From: a virus
Length of the DNA stretch: 41,746 nt
Direction: 5' to 3' (one strand)
Virus record (IMG/VR): IMGVR_UViG_3300007072_000018
Location: 1 to 41,746 of that record
Every line of letters starts with the position of its first letter. Within the stretch, counting starts at the first letter, position 1. The position numbers and the translations under genes are program-made. Shown here piece after piece: positions 1 through 41,714 of this stretch. Below the pieces are notes generated by a model. It did no database searches. It had not been told where the DNA came from and saw nothing but the letters and a program-made list of their open reading frames with translations.

Positions 1-123
1 AAATGGCGAGATGATTACAAGCGACCTACGAGGTTCATTTAAAGATAATCAATTAACAAGAGAGGAGTTTTTAAGATTATGCAAATTGTAAAAAGACAGA
101 TTTATATTACAGATACAATTGAG
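1..123. repeat. Left copy of 123-bp terminal direct repeat
   Basis: Bases 1-123 are identical to 41624-41746. The repeat begins inside the GTP cyclohydrolase reading frame and runs past its stop codon, so the two window ends are the same place on one molecule. The simplest reading is a circular contig opened at an arbitrary point, with an overlap left by the assembler. A true short terminal repeat on a linear virion genome is possible but less likely, because the repeat starts in mid-gene. Confidence 0.95.
2..91 (+). CDS. folE: C-terminal end of PRTase-FolE fusion (duplicate of right-edge gene)
   Basis: This open frame encodes the last 29 residues of the phosphoribosyltransferase-GTP cyclohydrolase I fusion, ending in LRLCKL and a TAA stop. 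It has no start because the window begins inside the gene. The full-length gene is at 40773-41714, and this piece is the same sequence seen again through the terminal repeat. It should not be counted as a second gene. Confidence 0.93.
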   Translation, partial: NGEMITSDLRGSFKDNQLTREEFLRLCKL

Positions 124-233
124 TGTTTTCATTGCTAAGACTAACTATTCCAGCACCAATCGTATTTAATGGTATAATAGGCATATTAAGGATTTACCTT
201 GGATACGCACCAGTTAAACTAATAATAAAATAA
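79..233 (+). pseudogene. Possible truncated thioredoxin/glutaredoxin-like remnant
   Basis: An ATG at 79 overlaps the folE stop and opens a 19-codon frame (79-138) ending in ECFHC, a CxxC pair after a beta-strand-like stretch, as at the start of small thioredoxin-fold proteins. The -1 frame then runs open from 135 to 233 and reads TIPAPIVFNG, which resembles the cis-proline strand of the same fold. The helix that normally follows the CxxC is missing, so this would be a decayed or internally deleted gene. The match is short and may be chance. The stretch also spans the contig junction, where an assembly fault is possible. Confidence 0.25.
170..178 (+). promoter_or_regulatory. Possible extended -10 promoter before head operon
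   Basis: TGGTATAAT (TG-n-TATAAT) matches an extended -10 element. It lies 60 bases upstream of the ParB-like gene. No good -35 box is seen at the proper spacing, which extended -10 promoters can tolerate. It would drive the terminase and head genes. It is a short AT-rich match in AT-rich DNA, so moderate doubt remains. Confidence 0.3.
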
Positions 234-237
234 AAAT

Positions 238-864
238 ATGATAAAGTTTGACATTTCAAAGCTAAAAGAAGTAGACATCTCGTTAATACGACCCAATAGT
301 TGGAACCCCAAGAACAAAGACACTATAGAATTTGACAAGGTGGTTAGAAGTATTGAATTAAAAGGGCAAAGGTTGCCTATTATTGTTAGAGAGATAGAAG
401 GGACTGATCCACAAGAATATGAGATTATAGATGGAGAACAAAAGTATAGAGCCTGTTTAAAACTAGGTAGGCAAAAAGTTCTTATCTACAATGAAGGGAT
501 AATGACTGACGAAGAAGCACAAGAGCTAACTATTATGTTTCAACAGCAAGTCCCTATGATTGAGGTTGAGTTGGCAAAATTAGTAGTAAAATTATCTGAG
601 CGACCAGACTTTCAGTTACCTTACACGCCTAGTGAAATTGAAACCTACAAAGGTATGCTAGACTTTGATTGGGACAGCCAAGAAGTAGGGACAGAAAATG
701 TCGCAATGATAGATGCTAAAGAAACATTCACTTTTTCACTAGAGAAAGAAGAAGCCTCAATAGTCATAGAAGCCTTAATCAATGCCAAGGGCGATGACGC
801 ACTAGAAGACGAACAGGCATTAGTAAAAATATGTAATTTCTATAATTTAAACTATGAAAAATAA
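238..864 (+). CDS. ParB/Srx-fold nuclease-like domain protein
   Basis: The 208-residue protein has an N-terminal ParB-like domain (about residues 10-110): a proline-rich start (LIRPNSWNPK), then EIIDGEQKYRACLKLG, the family signature in which an ExxDGxxR-type loop is followed by a helix. The C-terminal half is acidic and helical with no recognised domain. No ParA partner is visible, so plasmid partitioning is unlikely. Stand-alone ParB-like proteins beside phage terminases are common and are thought to act in DNA binding, nicking or packaging. The gene has no Shine-Dalgarno site and starts behind an A-rich taaaaatATG. The circular map places it directly after queD-queE-folE, so a role linked to modified DNA is possible but unproven. 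Confidence 0.8.
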   Translation: MIKFDISKLKEVDISLIRPNSWNPKNKDTIEFDKVVRSIELKGQRLPIIVREIEGTDPQEYEIIDGEQKYRACLKLGRQKVLIYNEGIMTDEEAQELTIMFQQQVPMIEVELAKLVVKLSERPDFQLPYTPSEIETYKGMLDFDWDSQEVGTENVAMIDAKETFTFSLEKEEASIVIEALINAKGDDALEDEQALVKICNFYNLNYEK

Positions 865-5838: not shown

Positions 5839-7134
5839 ATGAGAGTATGCTCAATATGTAAATCACCAGCTCAAAATGAAAAGTGTCCGATATGTGGTTC
5901 ATCACCTATTATAGATTTATATTTGGAAGACGATAGAATAATTGAATTATGTAAAAACAATAGTAAGAACTCGGGTGCTATATACCAAAATGCTAAAAAA
6001 AGAGGATTACTTAGAAGCCCCAACACTATTGAATTGGCTTTGAAGCGAATGAGTCTTAGTATAGAGGACGATACTAGAAATGCTACTTATAGAACAATTG
6101 TCAATCCAATAAATCCAATAGATGTGGCAGTATTAATTGAGAATAACCATTTTTATAGTGGTGGTAGATACTTTGGTTATCAAGTAATCAAAGCATTGGC
6201 AGAGATTGTGCCTAATCTAGTTGTCTTTACTAATATGGAGCCAATATTCTCTAGTGATTTTATTGATTATAAGTTTCATAAGACAGTATATGTAAAAGAT
6301 ATTAGAAAGGTAGATGTTAAAGCAAGGATTTATATTTCTTTTCCTGTCTATGGCAATATAACAGCAGTCAATTTAGCAAAGCAATATGATGGCAGATGTC
6401 TTGCATTTGTCTTTGACCCATTACCTCTTATTGCAAAACATATGCCTAGTGATTATAAAATGGAAGAAAAATACTTTGCACCTATGATACCCTCACTTAA
6501 AGAAAAAGATGTTGAAATAGTCGGTATTAGTGAATATGTCAGAAAGAGTAGTAAAAATTGGTTGAATAAAAAGAAGGTATGGAAAGTCGAACCAGTAGTT
6601 AATGATAGAGTATTAGCACCTATTCTAAAGAATGAGATTAAGAAAGAGAATTGGATTTGCACAGTTAGCAGAGTAGTTAATCGCAAAAATTATACTGATG
6701 TGTTGAAAGCCTTTGCACCAATATCAGATAAGTATAGATTAAAGTTTATTACTTCAATGCCCGATAAAATAGAAAAAGAGATTGAGGCAATGAACCTAAA
6801 AGATAGAATTGATTTTATATTAGCACCCAGCGATACAGAAAAGTTTGAGATAATGTCAAAGTGTAAGGCAATGATTTGTGCTAGTAAGTTTGAAGGCTTT
6901 GGAATGTGGCTTATTGAGGCACTTGCCTGTGGTATACCTTGTGTATGTTATGATTATCCTACATTCCGAGAGATAAGTAAGGATTTAGTTTATTTATCAA
7001 GAAACCTAAACGAGTTGACAAAAAATCTAGCAAAAGCAGTAAAAGAACAACCAAGAGAGTTTGATACTAGATATTATCAACCACGATTAATAAAACAATT
7101 AGAAAGGGTCTTAAATGGCAAACAAGAAGATTAA
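5839..7134 (+). CDS. GT4-type glycosyltransferase with N-terminal zinc ribbon
   Basis: Residues 1-25 form a double-knuckle zinc ribbon (CSIC...CPIC). A short helical linker follows, then a GT-B glycosyltransferase from about residue 90. The C-terminal Rossmann half has the GT4 E-x7-E motif (E352GFG...E360 within SKFEGFGMWLIEALACG) followed by IPCVCYD. Retaining GT4 enzymes move a sugar from a nucleotide-sugar donor to an acceptor. The position in the head operon suggests the acceptor is a virion protein or a structure needed late in infection. A zinc ribbon fused to a glycosyltransferase is unusual and may dock the enzyme on its target. It overlaps the methyltransferase by 20 bp. Confidence 0.85.
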   Translation: MRVCSICKSPAQNEKCPICGSSPIIDLYLEDDRIIELCKNNSKNSGAIYQNAKKRGLLRSPNTIELALKRMSLSIEDDTRNATYRTIVNPINPIDVAVLIENNHFYSGGRYFGYQVIKALAEIVPNLVVFTNMEPIFSSDFIDYKFHKTVYVKDIRKVDVKARIYISFPVYGNITAVNLAKQYDGRCLAFVFDPLPLIAKHMPSDYKMEEKYFAPMIPSLKEKDVEIVGISEYVRKSSKNWLNKKKVWKVEPVVNDRVLAPILKNEIKKENWICTVSRVVNRKNYTDVLKAFAPISDKYRLKFITSMPDKIEKEIEAMNLKDRIDFILAPSDTEKFEIMSKCKAMICASKFEGFGMWLIEALACGIPCVCYDYPTFREISKDLVYLSRNLNELTKNLAKAVKEQPREFDTRYYQPRLIKQLERVLNGKQED

Positions 7135-7729
7135 GCAATTCTATAAGGAAGAAGGTAATGATTTACCTGATTATCAGAGAAGGTTATATTTTAGTGAGAG
7201 TAGTAATAAATGGAGTATCGATAGATACAATACTGTTACTAAACTAATTGATTTAATGAACAAATCTCATAATTGTAATTCATTATTAGAGCTTGGTTGT
7301 GCTAATGGTTTTTATTTGAGAGAAGCCTTAAGACATGGTTATACTGATAGATTAGTTGGGGTAGAAATAAGTGATAGGAAACTGCAGAATGCAGTAGAGA
7401 AAGATAAAATATTCTATATCCTTGCTGACTGGGACGAGATAGGTTTTATAAGAAAAAACTTTGATGTTGTCTTATTATCAGAAACTATTGAACATAGTGA
7501 AGACCCAAAGGAATTAGTTAGAAAAGCTATGGAATGGGGCAAGTATGTTATAGCAACCGTTCCTACTAGCGAAAATCTAAAAGAAGACCCATTTAATAAA
7601 GAACACGGTGGTGTAGGACACTTACACGCTTTTAGACACGATACATTCCTTGATTTATTCAAAGGTGCTGCTATTGTCTATGAGCAACAAGAAAAACATT
7701 ATAGTTATATAATAGTAAAAACAAAATAG
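7115..7729 (+). CDS. Class I SAM-dependent methyltransferase
   Basis: The 204-residue protein has SAM-binding motif I, LLELGCANGFY (about residues 57-67), an acidic residue after the next strand (GVEIS), and FDVVLLSETIEHSEDP as motif IV/post-IV, as in Methyltransf_11/23 enzymes that act on small molecules or sugars. Lodged between two glycosyltransferases and overlapping the first, it probably methylates the transferred sugar. Capping a glycan with a methyl group is a known way to end a chain. A DNA methyltransferase is unlikely because no DPPY-type or PCQ motif is present. Confidence 0.82.
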   Translation: MANKKIKQFYKEEGNDLPDYQRRLYFSESSNKWSIDRYNTVTKLIDLMNKSHNCNSLLELGCANGFYLREALRHGYTDRLVGVEISDRKLQNAVEKDKIFYILADWDEIGFIRKNFDVVLLSETIEHSEDPKELVRKAMEWGKYVIATVPTSENLKEDPFNKEHGGVGHLHAFRHDTFLDLFKGAAIVYEQQEKHYSYIIVKTK

Positions 7730-7745
7730 GAAAATAAGCAAAAAT

Positions 7746-8579
7746 ATGAAAATAGTATGGTTAACTGACTTTACAGAGAAAGAACACCAAGGAGGGGCTC
7801 AACAAACCAATAAGATAATGATTGAGAATAGTCCTTATCAAGTTATTGTTGTAAAAACAAAAGACTTTAGACCATCAATGATAAATGATAGAAATCTTTT
7901 CATAATTAATAATATAGTGTTCTTATCAGATGATAACCTTAATCAGATAATATCAAGGGCAAAATATGTAAGATATTGCCACGACTATGAGTGTGTGCCT
8001 AGACTAAAAGACAAAAAAGATTTCTATAATAATTCACTAATGAATATATTTTTATCTCCTTTGCATCACAAAGAATATGTAAACAAGATTGGTTATGAGA
8101 TACCTAATGTTGAGATACAGAATAGCCCTATTGACACTAAGATATTCAAACATCTTCCTTCAAATAAAAAGAAAGAGGTTTTATGGGTTGGGCAAGTTAA
8201 TGTTCATAAAGGTATTAGTAATGTTATTTATTTTGCAAAAAAGAATAAAGATGTTATGATAAATGTAGTAGGTTTTGGCAATGGAGATTTAATTAAAAAG
8301 TTAAAAGAATTACCTAATATCAAGTTTTTACAAGAAATACCGCATAACTTAATGCCAGTTTATTATCGTAAGTATGATAGTTTTATACATTTACCTGAAT
8401 GGAAAGAACCATTTGGCAGAACAGTATTAGAAGCCTACTTATGTGGTTGTGATTTAATCATAAACGATAATCTTGGTTGTATGAGTTTTGATTGGGATTG
8501 GAATAATTATAAATCTATTAAGAAACACTGTGAAGAAGCACCAAAAGAATTTTGGAATAAAATAAAACAAATAATATAA
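7746..8579 (+). CDS. GT4-type glycosyltransferase, short form
   Basis: The 277-residue protein starts with MKIVWLTDF and a GGAQ loop, as in the N-terminal Rossmann fold of GT-B enzymes, and has the donor-binding half with WVGQVNVHKGI (about 140-150) and the E-x7-E motif E221PFGRTVLE229 followed by AYLCG. It is shorter than usual (350-400), with a reduced N-terminal half, so it may recognise a short or peptide-bound acceptor. It completes the glycosyltransferase-methyltransferase-glycosyltransferase block. The start is SD-less (aaaaatATG). Confidence 0.82.
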   Translation: MKIVWLTDFTEKEHQGGAQQTNKIMIENSPYQVIVVKTKDFRPSMINDRNLFIINNIVFLSDDNLNQIISRAKYVRYCHDYECVPRLKDKKDFYNNSLMNIFLSPLHHKEYVNKIGYEIPNVEIQNSPIDTKIFKHLPSNKKKEVLWVGQVNVHKGISNVIYFAKKNKDVMINVVGFGNGDLIKKLKELPNIKFLQEIPHNLMPVYYRKYDSFIHLPEWKEPFGRTVLEAYLCGCDLIINDNLGCMSFDWDWNNYKSIKKHCEEAPKEFWNKIKQII

Positions 8580-11929: not shown

Positions 11930-11984
11930 AGATGAAGCCCACTTGTTTCCTGTCTTTACAGGCTTTATGAGTGGGCTTTCGTCT
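11930..11984 (+). terminator. Branched hairpin after major capsid gene
   Basis: AAGCCCACT (11935-11943) pairs with AGTGGGCTT (11970-11978), and the pairing can be extended to about 14 bp (11930-11984) with one bulge and one G-U pair. Inside the loop, CCTGT/ACAGG (11949-11953/11958-11962) forms a second hairpin. Only a short T-run follows. It probably acts as a leaky terminator or as an mRNA-stabilising 3' end for the capsid message, lowering expression of the genes after it. Confidence 0.6.
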
Positions 11985-12000
11985 TAATAAGGAGGTCGAA

Positions 12001-13566
12001 ATGGGAATATCAAAGTTAGGATATGTTAGAAGTAACCCCAAACTTGCATTTGTAAGAGTTACACCTGATGGTGTTTCTTCAGATATATACAAGAATGAGT
12101 CTGGAGATGAATGGGTAGTGGCTCATAATGTCCACGCCTTATTCGATGGTAAGGAATATGGGGCAGATTATTATATAGAGCAGATTCAATATACTGTTCC
12201 AATGACATTGGCGTGTTATAAATATACTAAAGATGGGCACGACCAAATATTTACAAGTGGCTCTGTTATAACAAATCCAAGTGTTGGTGGAAACTATGGT
12301 TGGAATGGAGACTATCCAATCTATGCTATATTATGTAATCTAACATCTACAGTAGATGGTTCCATATTTATTGACAGTGCACCCTCTATTCTTTTATTAG
12401 AAGGTTGGGATAATATGGGTAACGAAGGGGAAGACATAAAAGCAATCCGTGATTTGATTGATGAATATGGAATTACTTTAGTTCCTGGTGGTGGAGGCGG
12501 AAATCAAGTAATAACACTATCAGATATACGATGTATATTCAGAATGTTTGATAATGTCGATGGGAATCAAGAACAACATCAAGGTTCTGGTGCTACTGGA
12601 TATGAACAGAATACTAAAACATTCTTCTCTGGGAATATGCTCGACTTAAGAATAAACAATGCTAGTGCTATTCATAATGGCGGACGACTAGTGATAGGAA
12701 TTGGTGAAAATGTATTAGTTGAGATAATTGGCGGTCAAAACAATTTTGGAGTTGATTATGGTATGGCAGGTGAAGATTTGACGCAATTAAAATCTCAGCT
12801 AGTTACTATCTTAAACAACGCTATGCAATTTGGTGAGCCGTTAAACGGAGTATTAACACTTGCCAGTCCTAGTAGTGATAATCTACCAGATTGGGTTCAA
12901 ATACATCTTGAGGGAATAAATGACACAATCTGGGTAGATAGTTATGGACAAAGTTATTGGGCTGATGCGTTTCGTTCATTACAACAAGGAAATAATGGTT
13001 GGGGATATGTTATTGATAGATTAGGGTTTTCTTTGGACAATAAACAGTATAGAGGACTTTATGGACAACCACCTACAATAGAGGCTTTTAATGGTTCTGT
13101 GGCTATGAAGGATAATAATGGCAATATTGTTAATTTCTTCCAAAAGATAGATAACTCTACAGAAGCATATTACATAGATAATCATACAATAGATTTAAGT
13201 TTTGCGACTGGAGAACAAGACATATATGCTATTCTAGGCAGGGTAACAATAGATAGTATAGAATATTTTGTTTGTATATTATCGAACGAAAATGAGAAAC
13301 AAACAATTATAGACTTCTGGACACAACAAGTTGGTGGTGTTGTTGATGAACAAGTAAAAGTATGGCAAGCAAATGGTATCAATATGGATTATACTTATGT
13401 TGGACCTGGAACAGAACCAGATGATAATGATCCATATTCAAGATGGCAAAGACAAAGAAATCATTTTGAGAATGGTGCAGTAGATGAGAGTTGGAATGAA
13501 TTGATGGATACTCCTTATGATGGCAAAGAAGCTCCAACAGTTCATAAAGAGGTTAAAAAGTTATAA
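12001..13566 (+). CDS. Large virion-associated protein of unknown function (521 aa)
   Basis: I do not recognise a family. The protein is rich in Gly, Asn, Asp and aromatic residues with beta-strand patterns, a GGGGGN linker near residue 165, and a hydrophilic C-terminus. The start at 12001 is preferred to an in-frame codon at 11971 because AAGGAGG lies just upstream. Strong translation and its place between the capsid and connector genes suggest a head fibre or surface protein. Being followed by a glycosyltransferase gene, it is a good candidate acceptor for sugar modification (inference). Confidence 0.6.
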   Translation: MGISKLGYVRSNPKLAFVRVTPDGVSSDIYKNESGDEWVVAHNVHALFDGKEYGADYYIEQIQYTVPMTLACYKYTKDGHDQIFTSGSVITNPSVGGNYGWNGDYPIYAILCNLTSTVDGSIFIDSAPSILLLEGWDNMGNEGEDIKAIRDLIDEYGITLVPGGGGGNQVITLSDIRCIFRMFDNVDGNQEQHQGSGATGYEQNTKTFFSGNMLDLRINNASAIHNGGRLVIGIGENVLVEIIGGQNNFGVDYGMAGEDLTQLKSQLVTILNNAMQFGEPLNGVLTLASPSSDNLPDWVQIHLEGINDTIWVDSYGQSYWADAFRSLQQGNNGWGYVIDRLGFSLDNKQYRGLYGQPPTIEAFNGSVAMKDNNGNIVNFFQKIDNSTEAYYIDNHTIDLSFATGEQDIYAILGRVTIDSIEYFVCILSNENEKQTIIDFWTQQVGGVVDEQVKVWQANGINMDYTYVGPGTEPDDNDPYSRWQRQRNHFENGAVDESWNELMDTPYDGKEAPTVHKEVKKL

Positions 13567-13576
13567 ACAAAAATAT

Positions 13577-14638
13577 ATGCCAATTAAAATAAATTGGCTA
13601 GGCACGATGGGAGCAGGGCAAGGATATAGTGGTTCTGCAGAAAAGATTATACTTGCTCTTGATAAACTAGGAGTGGATATAAGAATACTCGGTATTACGA
13701 AATCTTACCCTGTTCCATTGACTGCTGAAGCCGAAGCAATCAGAAAAAAAACTTACGAAGAAGCAGAGATTGGAATGTGTTATGGCTTTCCTCACACAGC
13801 CACAATGCTACAGAATAAAAAGATAGTCCTGTTCTCAATGTTTGAGACAGATAGATTGCCTAACGGAATAAATGCCTGGGCGGGAATTACTGGGAATGCT
13901 GGTAAAACTATAAATAATTTTAATGTATTAATTGTTCCTTCATATCATAATAAGAGACTATTCATAAAAGAAGGGGTAGATATACCTATTTATGTTATAC
14001 CTCTTGGAGTAGATGAGAAGTTTACTTTCAAACAAAGAGTAGTTAAAAATACTTTTACTTTCTTATGGGTTGGAACATTTACTAAAAGAAAAGACCCATT
14101 GCTAGTCGTAGATGCCTTTAAGGCACTATATAGCGATAGAGGTGATGTAAAATTAATTCTTAAGACTTCAGGAGGTATTGCACAAAAGTTTGACTTTGGT
14201 AGCAATATAGAGGTAATTGATAGGATTTTAACTGAAGACGAGTTGATAAACCTTTATCATAGTAGCGATTGCTTCGTATTTCCAAGCAGAGGTGAGGGTT
14301 TTGGATTACCACCATTAGAAGCGATAGCAACTGGTATGCCGACAATAATGGCTTACAATACTGGGATGATAGACATTTTAAAAAATGGTATTGGTTGTCC
14401 ACTAGAAAAACAGACACTCGAACCAGCTGAAAAGTTTAAAGATGATTGGGGAGAAATTGGTAATTGGAGTGTTAGTGATATAGATGAGTTGAAAGAAAAG
14501 ATGTCTTATGTCTATAACAATCAAGAAAAATGTTTTAAACAAGCCAAAGAACAATCTGATTTTGTAAAAAAAGTATATACTTATCAGAACACAGCATTAA
14601 AAATAAAAAAAATATTGGAGGTATTGAATGGAAATTAA
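13577..14638 (+). CDS. GT4-type glycosyltransferase
   Basis: The 353-residue GT-B enzyme has an N-terminal GTMGAGQGYSGSAEK loop, WVGTFTKRKDP at the start of the donor-binding half (about residue 165) and the E-x7-E motif E240GFGLPPLE248 followed by AIATGMP. This is the best-preserved GT4 of the three in the genome. The ATG at 13577 is preferred to one at 13517 inside the upstream gene, because the fold starts right after it. The start is SD-less (aaaatatATG). It overlaps the next gene by 11 bp. Confidence 0.87.
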   Translation: MPIKINWLGTMGAGQGYSGSAEKIILALDKLGVDIRILGITKSYPVPLTAEAEAIRKKTYEEAEIGMCYGFPHTATMLQNKKIVLFSMFETDRLPNGINAWAGITGNAGKTINNFNVLIVPSYHNKRLFIKEGVDIPIYVIPLGVDEKFTFKQRVVKNTFTFLWVGTFTKRKDPLLVVDAFKALYSDRGDVKLILKTSGGIAQKFDFGSNIEVIDRILTEDELINLYHSSDCFVFPSRGEGFGLPPLEAIATGMPTIMAYNTGMIDILKNGIGCPLEKQTLEPAEKFKDDWGEIGNWSVSDIDELKEKMSYVYNNQEKCFKQAKEQSDFVKKVYTYQNTALKIKKILEVLNGN

Positions 14639-27291: not shown

Positions 27292-27410
27292 TAAACTTTA
27301 TGCTATATCTAACTGGATTTTTATTACTATCCACGATTGGGTATAGCATATATTTATTTATATTAAAACTAATAGAAGCAAGGAGGACAAAATGGAAGAA
27401 GAAAAGTTAG
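27288..27410 (+). CDS. 40-residue single-span membrane protein
   Basis: An ATG at 27288 overlaps the previous stop (ATGA) and encodes 40 residues: a hydrophobic stretch from about 4 to 28 (FMLYLTGFLLLSTIGYSIYL) and a basic tail. The end overlaps the peptidase gene by 19 bp and contains its AAGGAGG site. Small one-span proteins beside lysis genes often act as holins, antiholins or lysis regulators. The function here is inferred only. Confidence 0.55.
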   Translation: MINFMLYLTGFLLLSTIGYSIYLFILKLIEARRTKWKKKS

Positions 27411-28573
27411 TGTTTGGTGCTATACCAAGCCCCAAAGATGAGAGAGATTATATAGCTATGGCAGAAATACCCACAGCAGGTTTGCCTGTTAGTGTAGATA
27501 ATTCTGACAAGATTTTTAAAATTAAAAACCAAGGTAATGAAGGGACTTGTGTTGCTAATTCCGTTTCTTATCTGAAAGAGTTTTTTGATAGAACAGATTT
27601 ATCAGTAAGAGATATTTACTATCACGGAAGACAATTATCAGGAATGAACCCGATCTCAAATCCAGGTTCTTCTGATTGGAAAGATAGAGAAGGAATGGTT
27701 CCTAGGGATGCTATGCACTCTGTAAAAGATAGGGGTGTATGTCGAGAGTCTGTGTGGCCTTATAAAGTGTTTGATAAAAGCACTCCACCAGTAGGTAGCG
27801 ATAAAGATGCTTTGTCTTATAGATTTGCTAGTTATGCAAAGGTAGTTACTTTTAATGATATGAAAGCACAATTAGCAAAAGGTCAAATAGTTAGTGTATT
27901 AGTTAGAATATGGGATAATGGCTATAATTGGTATACAAATGTCGTTAAACAGAGAAATAATACGGTTCTAACAGGTGGGAATGTTATTACTAGTGGACAC
28001 GAGATTACTTGTGTGGGCTATGATGACAATAGAAATAATCCTGATGGGACTATTGGTGCCTGGAAAATGGCTAATAGTTGGGGAGAAGGTTGGGGAGATA
28101 AGGGCTTCTTTTGGCTACCTTATAACTATCCAATTGATGAAATGTGGGTGGGTGTAGATACCGAAGGAGTTTATTCTTTCAAATATGATGGTCAAGAACC
28201 CAAGAACCCAGTTGAAATAAAGCCGGGCGAAACAAAGATATTAACATTAAGATTGATAAACGATGGAACTGCTGATTGGTTGCCAAATATATTTAGAATA
28301 GGCACTTCTCAAAATCTAAAGAAAGAGAAAAACTTTTTCAATGATATTGATAGACCATCTTTATTCTATAATGTAAATTGGCAATGGATTAATAGACCAG
28401 CAACAGTTGATAAAGTAATTAAACCAGGGGAAAGTTATGATTTTAAAATATCAATAACAGCCCCATTTAATTCCAAGGTCGGCAATGTCTTTGAAGAATA
28501 TTTCAGACCAGTTGTTGATGGAGTGATGTGGTTAAAAGACATTGGGATATATTGGCAAATAAAAGTAATTTAA
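27392..28573 (+). CDS. Papain-family (C1) cysteine peptidase with Ig-like domain
   Basis: The 393-residue protein has the C1 catalytic order: oxyanion Gln47 in KNQGNEGTC, nucleophile Cys53, His203 in SGHEITCVGYDD and Asn228 in ANSWGEGWG. All four are intact. After the peptidase (about 15-260) comes a beta domain (about 272-393) with IKPGETKILTLRLINDGTADW and IKPGESYDF, which matches the NBR1-type Ig-like fold, thought to bind ligand or surface. No signal peptide is seen. It lies between small membrane proteins and takes the place where an endolysin is expected, while no muramidase or amidase is visible elsewhere. It probably cuts cell-envelope protein or peptide crosslinks during lysis, or acts on host surface protein. 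Confidence 0.85.
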   Translation: MEEEKLVFGAIPSPKDERDYIAMAEIPTAGLPVSVDNSDKIFKIKNQGNEGTCVANSVSYLKEFFDRTDLSVRDIYYHGRQLSGMNPISNPGSSDWKDREGMVPRDAMHSVKDRGVCRESVWPYKVFDKSTPPVGSDKDALSYRFASYAKVVTFNDMKAQLAKGQIVSVLVRIWDNGYNWYTNVVKQRNNTVLTGGNVITSGHEITCVGYDDNRNNPDGTIGAWKMANSWGEGWGDKGFFWLPYNYPIDEMWVGVDTEGVYSFKYDGQEPKNPVEIKPGETKILTLRLINDGTADWLPNIFRIGTSQNLKKEKNFFNDIDRPSLFYNVNWQWINRPATVDKVIKPGESYDFKISITAPFNSKVGNVFEEYFRPVVDGVMWLKDIGIYWQIKVI

Positions 28574-28582
28574 GGAGGTTAT

Positions 28583-28834
28583 ATGGCAAAAAAATTAAGC
28601 AAACCAAAAAAGATTAAGGATTTATACCTTAAACTTATGAACACTGCAACGGGTAAATTGGTAAATGTTTTATTCTATCTTTTACTTTCAAATGCAGTAG
28701 CTATTCTTACACAATACTATAGTAATATTGATTTGACAGGTAAAACATTAACCTATGTTTTATTTATCAGTAGTATTAATATTATTCTAGTATTTCTAAA
28801 TAAAATGGTATTGCCTTTATTTTCTAAGAAATAA
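28583..28834 (+). CDS. Two-span membrane protein, holin candidate
   Basis: The 83-residue protein has a basic N-terminus (MAKKLSKPKKIKD), two hydrophobic segments (about 24-44 and 57-77) and a lysine end, a shape usual for class II holins. It directly follows the peptidase gene and has AAGGAGG 5 bases before the ATG. It is the best holin candidate in the window, though family similarity cannot be read by eye. Confidence 0.6.
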   Translation: MAKKLSKPKKIKDLYLKLMNTATGKLVNVLFYLLLSNAVAILTQYYSNIDLTGKTLTYVLFISSINIILVFLNKMVLPLFSKK

Positions 28835-39773: not shown

Positions 39774-40148
39774 ATGCTAATTGTAAAAGAATTTACTTTT
39801 GATAGTGCTCACTTTTTACCTTGGCACGAAGGTAAATGCAAAAATCTACACGGACACACTTATAAGATGCAGGTTGGAGTTAGAGGACAATTGAATCCAA
39901 ATGGAATAGTTATTGACTTTGGCGACCTTAAAAATATTGTTAATAGTATGGTTATTGAAAAACTAGACCATAAATATTTGAATGATATTTATTCAAACCC
40001 GACAGCTGAAGTTATGGCTTTAGAAATATTTGGTAATATTAGACCATTACTAAAAAAGATAGGAGTCGATTTAGCATTTGTTAGATTATGGGAAACACCA
40101 ACAAGTTTTGCTGAAGCTACCTATGAGGATTTTAATTATGAAAATTAA
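39774..40148 (+). CDS. queD: 6-carboxy-tetrahydropterin synthase
   Basis: QueD turns dihydroneopterin triphosphate into 6-carboxytetrahydropterin, the second step of queuosine/7-deazaguanine synthesis. The 124-residue protein has zinc ligands His13, His26 and His28 (in NLHGHTY), the catalytic Cys22, the LDHKYLND loop and WETPTSFAEA near the C-terminus, which fits QueD rather than eukaryotic PTPS. AAAGGAG is upstream. QueE follows with 11 bp overlap. Confidence 0.92.
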   Translation: MLIVKEFTFDSAHFLPWHEGKCKNLHGHTYKMQVGVRGQLNPNGIVIDFGDLKNIVNSMVIEKLDHKYLNDIYSNPTAEVMALEIFGNIRPLLKKIGVDLAFVRLWETPTSFAEATYEDFNYEN

Positions 40149-40773
40149 TGAAATATTCTTATCAGTCCAAGGCGAAGGTCAACAAGCTGGAGAATTAACA
40201 ATATTTATTAGAACAAGTGGTTGCAATTTTAAATGTAAATGGTGCGACACTCAGTATCATATTAATGGTAAGGAAATAGATGTTGAGGAGATAATACATA
40301 GGTTAGAAAGTGATTATCCTGAAATAAAAAATATTTGCCTTACTGGTGGAGAGCCATTATTACAGCCTGACATTGAAAAGTTTTTAGTAATTGCTACTAG
40401 CAAAAACTATAAAGTATTTGTTGAGACAAATGGTAGCCAACCATTGCCATTAGAAATTGATAATGTATTCTATGTCCTTGATTTCAAATTGCCAAGCTCT
40501 GGTATGTATGGAAAGTTCTTATTAGAAAATCTAGATAAAGATGTTTATGAAATTAAGTTTGTGATTGAGAACGAAGAAGATTATGACATAGCACACGATA
40601 TGGCAAAAGAAATATTAACTAATCACCCAAAAACAAAAGTATTATTCTCGCCTTGCTTTGAAAAAAAATGGAATACCAAACTAGCCGAAAGAATTGTTAA
40701 AGATAAATTGCCAGTAAGGTATTCATTACAAATACATAAAGTTCTTTGGAGCCATAAAAAGAGAGGTGTCTAA
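40138..40773 (+). CDS. queE: 7-carboxy-7-deazaguanine synthase (radical SAM)
   Basis: QueE makes 7-carboxy-7-deazaguanine (CDG) from the QueD product. The 211-residue protein has FLSVQGEGQQAGELTIFIR, the iron-sulfur cluster motif C29-x3-C33-x2-C36, CLTGGEPLLQ, FVETNGS and an LQIHKVLW end, all typical of QueE. The ATG at 40138 starts exactly at the family N-terminus, so the in-frame ATG at 40078 inside queD is rejected. It overlaps the next gene by one base (TAATG). Confidence 0.93.
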   Translation: MKINEIFLSVQGEGQQAGELTIFIRTSGCNFKCKWCDTQYHINGKEIDVEEIIHRLESDYPEIKNICLTGGEPLLQPDIEKFLVIATSKNYKVFVETNGSQPLPLEIDNVFYVLDFKLPSSGMYGKFLLENLDKDVYEIKFVIENEEDYDIAHDMAKEILTNHPKTKVLFSPCFEKKWNTKLAERIVKDKLPVRYSLQIHKVLWSHKKRGV

Positions 40774-41714
40774 TGGAAAACAAAATAAAAATATCAGAAG
40801 AACAATTTAAAGCTGACTGTATAATATTAGCCGAAATAATTAGAAAAGAAATTGCTATATTCAATATTAAAATAGAAAACATCTATGGTATTCCTAGGGG
40901 TGGAGAATATGTTGCAAAAGAGTTAAGTGCGATACTAAACATACCAATTAGTAATAGAATAACACCACAAACAATTGTAGTTGATGACTTGATTGATAGT
41001 GGGAAGACAATTGCTAATTTCTATGGTAAATATCCTTGCTTTAATATGTTTTATGTTTTATATAAAAAGCCACATAGTATTATAAGAGCATTGCCAACCA
41101 GTTTTAACTATGTTACAGAACATAATGGCTGGATTGAGTTTTGGTATGAAGACACAAATACCGATGATGAGAACCTTATTGTTAGAATGTTAGAAAGAAT
41201 AGGCGAAAACCCAAACCGCGAGGGTTTAGTAGATACTCCAAAAAGAGTAGTAAAAATGTGGGAAGAGATTTTCCGAGGTTATGATGAAGCACAGAAACCA
41301 AATATTACAATATTTGATAATAATTGTGATGGAGTAGAGTATGACCAAATGGTTTATGACAAAGGTTATTTCTTTTCTCATTGCGAACATCATATGGTGC
41401 CATTTTTTGGAGAATACTTTTTTGCTTATATACCTGGAGAAAAGGTAATTGGTCTATCAAAGATTGCTAGAATAATTGATTTCTATTCCGCAAAATTACA
41501 AATACAAGAAAGGCTAGTTAAAGAAGTGGTTGATGAAATTGAAAAGGTAGCAAAGCCTATAGGTATTGCTCTTATTATGAAGGGCAGACATCTTTGTAAA
41601 GAAATGCGAGGAGTTAAAAAGATAAATGGCGAGATGATTACAAGCGACCTACGAGGTTCATTTAAAGATAATCAATTAACAAGAGAGGAGTTTTTAAGAT
41701 TATGCAAATTGTAA
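40773..41714 (+). CDS. folE: Phosphoribosyltransferase-GTP cyclohydrolase I fusion
   Basis: The 313-residue protein has two domains. Residues 1-125 form a type I phosphoribosyltransferase: YGIPRGGEYVAKEL, the PRPP loop VVDDLIDSGKT (69-79) and a WIEFWYED end as in purine PRTases. Residues 134-313 form FolE: RMLERIGENPNREGL, zinc ligands Cys204, His207 and Cys275 (in CEHHM and GRHLCKEMRG) and the GTP-binding end. FolE turns GTP into dihydroneopterin triphosphate, the first step before QueD. The PRTase may salvage guanine to supply GTP, or may attach ribose phosphate to a deazaguanine base. AGAGGTG precedes the start. Confidence 0.9.
   Translation: MENKIKISEEQFKADCIILAEIIRKEIAIFNIKIENIYGIPRGGEYVAKELSAILNIPISNRITPQTIVVDDLIDSGKTIANFYGKYPCFNMFYVLYKKPHSIIRALPTSFNYVTEHNGWIEFWYEDTNTDDENLIVRMLERIGENPNREGLVDTPKRVVKMWEEIFRGYDEAQKPNITIFDNNCDGVEYDQMVYDKGYFFSHCEHHMVPFFGEYFFAYIPGEKVIGLSKIARIIDFYSAKLQIQERLVKEVVDEIEKVAKPIGIALIMKGRHLCKEMRGVKKINGEMITSDLRGSFKDNQLTREEFLRLCKL

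Follow-up and report, generated by a model that had tools for sequence, protein, structure and literature searches.

Genes at the 7-deazaguanine locus

The analyzed sequence, called the window throughout, is the entire IMG/VR record IMGVR_UViG_3300007072_000018 (41,746 bp), and its first 123 bases are an exact repeat of its last 123, giving a closed map of 41,623 bp. The locus consists of queD, queE, and PRT-folE, all transcribed from the + strand as overlapping or abutting open reading frames, with the start of queE overlapping the end of queD; on the closed map, these are followed by a ParB-like gene (Table 1).

Table 1. Features of the que locus and of the closing junction, in positions of the window
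Feature	Position	Strand	Match or content
Junction	1..237	.	folE 3' end (copy of 41624-41714) and 147-nt spacer to ParB
ParB-like protein	238..864	+	phrog_8071, 1.8e-16; first gene past folE on the closed map
QueD, 6-carboxytetrahydropterin synthase, 124 aa	39774..40148	+	PF01242, 9.3e-36
QueE, 7-carboxy-7-deazaguanine synthase (radical SAM), ~211 aa	40138..40773	+	phrog_2076, 2.9e-41; PF04055
PRT-FolE fusion, 313 aa	40773..41714	+	N-terminal PRT, C-terminal FolE
PRT domain, XGPRT-like, residues 1 to ~127	40773..41153	+	phrog_8995, 8.3e-5; NF006613 (XGPRT), 7.2e-6
FolE (GTP cyclohydrolase I) domain	41154..41714	+	PF01227, 2.2e-59

QueD, QueE, and FolE are complete and retain their active-site motifs, as the preliminary description had stated, according to Pfam, TIGRFAM, and PHROG matches and direct reading of the motifs. 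QueD scores 102.9 bits against TIGR03367 (cut-off, 89.25), matches the solved homologues 2oba and 4ntm/4ntk, and has a legible His/Cys catalytic set. QueE starts at the ATG of MKINEIF, carries the C-x3-C-x2-C motif as CNFKCKWC, and matches the solved QueE 5tgs at 2.6e-14. The FolE zinc-site residues C204, H207, and C275 are all present, and in an AlphaFold2 model of the whole fusion protein (mean pLDDT, 93), the FolE part matches solved GTP cyclohydrolase I with a Z score of 21. The three proteins are a sufficient gene set for 7-carboxy-7-deazaguanine (CDG), in agreement with the earlier proposal, and would convert GTP to CDG.

The fusion of a phosphoribosyltransferase (PRT) to FolE is confirmed by PHROG, XGPRT model, and solved-XGPRT profile matches spanning residues 1 to ~127. 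A profile of 21 such PRT domains finds solved XGPRTs of E. coli, Yersinia, and Pyrococcus, with 1vdm, 5xtk, and 1a95 among the hits, at E values of 1e-13 to 1e-15. Modeled alone with AlphaFold2 (pLDDT, 88), the domain has as its best structural match E. coli XGPRT with a guanine analogue (Z score, 16.8; 119 residues; rmsd, 2.4), and nearly all of the 18 best structural matches are other 6-oxopurine PRTs. The PPi loop reads PRGG, the PRPP motif reads DDLIDSGKT with an Asp at its fifth position, and K99 and W120 are also present. D75, K99, and W120 align with D92, K115, and W134 of E. coli Gpt, which are base-site residues, the Asp contacting purine N7 in Gpt and HGPRT; D75 is conserved in 67 of the 71 PRTs compared. 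As D75 would face N7, and a 7-substituted deazaguanine would place its carbon substituent there, this motif probably favors true purines.

The window PRT thus resembles the XGPRT (Gpt) of E. coli and Yersinia in fold, PPi loop, PRPP motif, and Asp/Lys/Trp purine site, but unlike Gpt it is fused to FolE and has a flexible loop that is ~20 residues shorter, as in most fused PRTs. The flexible-loop stretch from PRGG to DD is 26 aa in the window and mostly 20 to 40 aa in fused copies, versus 48 aa in Gpt. The domain is named XGPRT-like because the full-length loop of Gpt is missing, and its catalysis is uncertain because most of that catalytic loop is gone; from sequence and model together, we infer a 6-oxopurine (xanthine/guanine-like) phosphoribosyltransferase, with activity and substrate predicted accordingly. 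PRT domains on phage FolE proteins are widespread, although they are unnamed in the phage annotations examined.

Gene order, descent, and distribution

The viral contig loci L058, L090, L094, and L096 are organized as QueD-QueE-PRT-FolE-QueC-DpdA-ParB, and L001 has the same order with small extra genes. All five share QueD-QueE-PRT-FolE and ParB with the window but have QueC and DpdA after folE, and the window order, QueD-QueE-PRT-FolE-ParB, is that of these relatives minus QueC-DpdA. Together with L019 and L021, they are the nearest relatives of the window or share its order around PRT and FolE; L021 differs in coding for PRT and FolE as two genes. The window protein falls in a four-row clade with L001, L019, and L027 (SH-aLRT, 100), all three of which have both DpdA and QueC; because the window is nested in this clade, its lack of QueC-DpdA is either derived or artefactual. 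In L001, an intein-like insert splits PRT-FolE right at the zinc-site Cys (CEHH; L001:9995-11710). Terminase-based relatives have no que genes in the stretches examined and some retain ParB, which identifies the que genes of the window as an accessory block upstream of ParB-terminase. ParB-like genes frequently flank DpdA clusters, and they also lie upstream of the terminase where que genes are absent; ParB was therefore rejected as a marker of the cluster.

The distribution of the PRT was examined by six-frame scan for gene presence in 83 FolE-bearing viral contig loci. The PRT is present in 66 of these (61 fused, 5 separate), and DpdA accompanies it in 60, within the stretch in 58 and elsewhere in the record in L054 and L098; the other six PRT loci (L024, L026, L032, L045, L073, and L087) are short contigs or end near the cluster. 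Selection of the loci rested on resemblance to the window, and near-duplicates remain among them, so these counts describe an association and not independent trials. DpdA is still carried by 13 of the 17 loci that have no PRT, and the PRT is thus dispensable for some DpdA phages; in 14 DpdA-positive loci, no QueC was found within the stretch analyzed. A scan of prokaryotes with one genome per species (~85,000 species) recognized the fusion in only 2 of the 80 best loci, a set selected for resemblance to the window and containing some redundancy; one of the two has DpdA, and in the other a terminase accompanies what appears to be a DpdA frame.

The same association is seen in cultured phages. 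PRT-FolE is adjacent to QueC and DpdA in VpKK5, MMDA13, and ply2008005c; in PaMx25, the annotated folE start lies after the PRT, and both a tblastn match and the six-frame scan run through the PRT. In Flavobacterium phage immuto, the PRT is a gene of its own immediately upstream of folE, and DpdA lies 1.8 kb further along. Queuovirinae and similar phages (Vibrio VpKK5, Pseudomonas PaMx25 and NP1, Sphingomonas MMDA13, and Stenotrophomonas ply2008005c) have QueD, QueE, and PRT-FolE clustered as in the window, but they also code for QueC, DpdA, and a DNA polymerase of their own, none of which the window has.

Three apparent cases of a PRT without DpdA were rejected. L048 has a DpdA of a second type (and a 468-aa QueE with an apparent intein-like insert near its N terminus, L048:4441-5847). 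L140, a phage-like contig in a Thermoguttaceae MAG, has between ParB and QueD an open reading frame that begins like DpdA (FAGAE...DSG; L140:4937-5407 onward) and, as judged by eye, is apparently frameshifted. Cellulophaga phage phiST codes for a member of the second DpdA-like family; its FolE, QueE, and QueD adjoin MazG-like, P-loop kinase-like, and second-type DpdA-like (phrog_20335) proteins, and its PRT lies elsewhere, directly beside a dNMP kinase-like gene and at a distance of two genes from ribonucleotide reductase (L136:45600-49705 and 27602-28646). The second DpdA-like family (phrog_20335/phrog_19058) is beyond the reach of phrog_887 and phrog_7068 and is of unknown function according to PHROGs; its members include phiST CGPG_00065, L132:14138-14932, BSTP12_038 (L006:7664-8452; annotated as NadR), and L048:10929-11693. 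L008:5646-9295 codes for DpdA and a methyltransferase together with QueD, QueE, and FolE. Its record lacks QueC, and the locus is a candidate for placing CDG, or a methylated form of it, in DNA. At L022:7574-8371, between folE and queC, the PRT has a C-terminal HAD-like domain and a divergent PRPP motif, VDNTIRTGHT.

Genes absent from the closed map

The absence of QueC and a DpdA/TGT-type enzyme, noted in the preliminary description, holds in family searches and in six-frame HMM searches over the closed map. No QueC was found in the record with PF06508 or phrog_1550, and no DpdA with phrog_887, phrog_7068, or the second DpdA-like family; at maximum sensitivity, the best six-frame HMM E values are 0.16 for DpdA and 0.77 for QueC. 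Neither a nucleotide kinase nor a DNA polymerase was found on the closed map with Pfam, PHROG, or HMM searches. The remaining open reading frames, in which the description had proposed looking for further pathway enzymes, have no Pfam, PHROG, or sensitive HMM match to QueC, DpdA, TGT, or a kinase, and a hidden copy among them is rejected. The proteins of at least 200 aa without assignment are encoded amid the head and tail genes; the 531-aa product of 11971-13566 has no match. There are no Rfam matches to RNA elements and no tRNA genes in the window.

Because the contig ends overlap by 123 bp and the map closes, the lack of QueC and DpdA belongs to the assembly as such and does not stem from a truncated contig, and a simple contig-end cause is ruled out. 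FolE, QueD, QueE, and descent place the window locus with the DpdA-type clusters, in which QueC is variable; as it has no DpdA, it is not classed as a complete member.

Proposed function and alternatives

We modestly favor reading the que locus of the window as the first part of a 7-deazaguanine DNA-modification cluster of dpd type, from which QueC and DpdA have been lost or were dropped by assembly, and in whose relatives the PRT recycles guanine. TGT-type base exchange releases guanine, and it is because of this, and because the PRT-FolE fusion sits in DpdA clusters, that the PRT is read as a recycling enzyme. In DpdA-bearing relatives, it would join guanine released by DpdA to PRPP, yielding GMP that host kinases would convert to GTP for reuse by FolE; one purine would be regained per exchange, and the exchange would be pulled forward. 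The earlier idea that the PRT feeds a purine nucleotide to FolE would fit, judging from the XGPRT-like domain and the occurrence of the fusion throughout DpdA-type clusters. The tie between PRT and DpdA thus suggests that phages recycle guanine freed by base exchange, and the window is a case in which the output half of the cluster is missing. We know of no drawing of the pathway that includes a guanine recycling step, and no paper pairing DpdA with a phosphoribosyltransferase was found among those searched; the idea may already have been published.

Within the window itself, recycling has no visible guanine source because DpdA is absent. If the loss is genuine, the genes would yield CDG only, which may serve the QueC and queuosine pathway of the host, or the cluster may be a recent remnant; as the open reading frames are intact, such a loss would be recent or the genes would still be useful. 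A distinct explanation is that the genes act for the host throughout, with host enzymes turning phage-made CDG into preQ0 and queuosine and so raising Q in host tRNA, with no DNA modification. QueD, QueE, and FolE would be enough for this, and 48 phages, Campylobacter phages included, have preQ0 genes and no DpdA (group 4 of Hutinet 2019; PMC6884629), the role having been proposed for such partial sets. Supply of host queuosine nonetheless presupposes QueC and TGT in the host, and the fused PRT and the synteny indicate a DNA-modification ancestor; we regard this explanation as somewhat improbable.

The loss may also not be genuine. In the actual population, folE and parB may be separated by QueC and DpdA, either in all genomes or in part of a mixture, with the assembler having bridged the site. 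Gene-order comparison places QueC and DpdA of the relatives exactly at the junction where the contig ends join, and we estimate the chance of a random break within ~360 of 41,623 bp of the site at ~0.9%. The length of the repeat, 123 bases, resembles that of an assembler k-mer, and in L054, DpdA lies at one end of the record and the remaining cluster at the other. Against this, the junction reads continuously from the folE tail to parB, and because it is gapless, there must be reads with the short folE-parB arrangement, barring a duplication of the folE tail; opening of phage contigs near the terminase is common, and the terminase is ~1 kb from the junction. A search for near-identical siblings with QueC-DpdA, using a 36-base junction pattern, gave no match in a viral contig set from which near-identical records may have been withheld. 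We regard omission by the assembler as unlikely.

Less likely again is that the PRT domain is a noncatalytic sensor of PRPP or guanine nucleotides that regulates FolE. The shortened flexible loop of most fused copies would suit such a role, and regulators with a PRT fold are known, PyrR being among the structural matches; however, the PPi loop, PRPP motif, D75, Lys, and Trp are all conserved, and the same clusters include stand-alone PRT genes (for example, L021, L045, and L132).

The least probable alternative is the pre-replicative route put forward in the preliminary description, in which the PRT would attach a 7-deazaguanine base to PRPP; host enzymes would then make the dNTP, and a polymerase would insert it. 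The closed map without DpdA is in its favor, as is Campylobacter phage CP220 (Firehammervirus), in which dADG reportedly replaces dG (Crippen 2019). CP220 codes for a PRT (phrog_8995, 2.2e-61) and for QueC, and no DpdA was detected in it with either DpdA family type, phrog_7068 included. PMC6884629 cites the report of dADG substitution in CP220. Like the window, the group 4 phages have a partial preQ0 pathway and no DpdA, and CP220 shares the PRT as well, but it retains QueC, which the window lacks, and encodes the PRT apart from FolE; dG replacement is reported for CP220. The pre-replicative route is unsupported in the window, given that the fusion is a feature of DpdA clusters, with DpdA accompanying 60 of 66 PRTs, that the conserved D75 would meet the C7 substituent, and that kinase, QueC, and polymerase are all missing. 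Nor does a new logic of DNA modification emerge, since nearly all relatives carry QueC and DpdA and the window appears to have a shortened version of a known cluster. It would be a long shot to extend the route to the PRT group as a whole, both the fused form of the window and the stand-alone form of CP220, as a means to DpdA-free 7-deazaguanine DNA, with phosphorylation by the host and CDG as the base in the window. CP220 does pose the question of whether such a PRT aids dG replacement without DpdA, and its PRT gene at 163869-164282 (L138:5870-6283) is a candidate for an insertion route of dADG.

Two other groups of window genes are of note. The head-gene region (5839-8579 and 13517-14638) codes for three glycosyltransferases and one class I methyltransferase, which suggest that virion proteins are glycosylated. 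A papain-like peptidase extended at its C terminus (27392-28573) is encoded next to small holin-like genes, where a lysis gene would lie.
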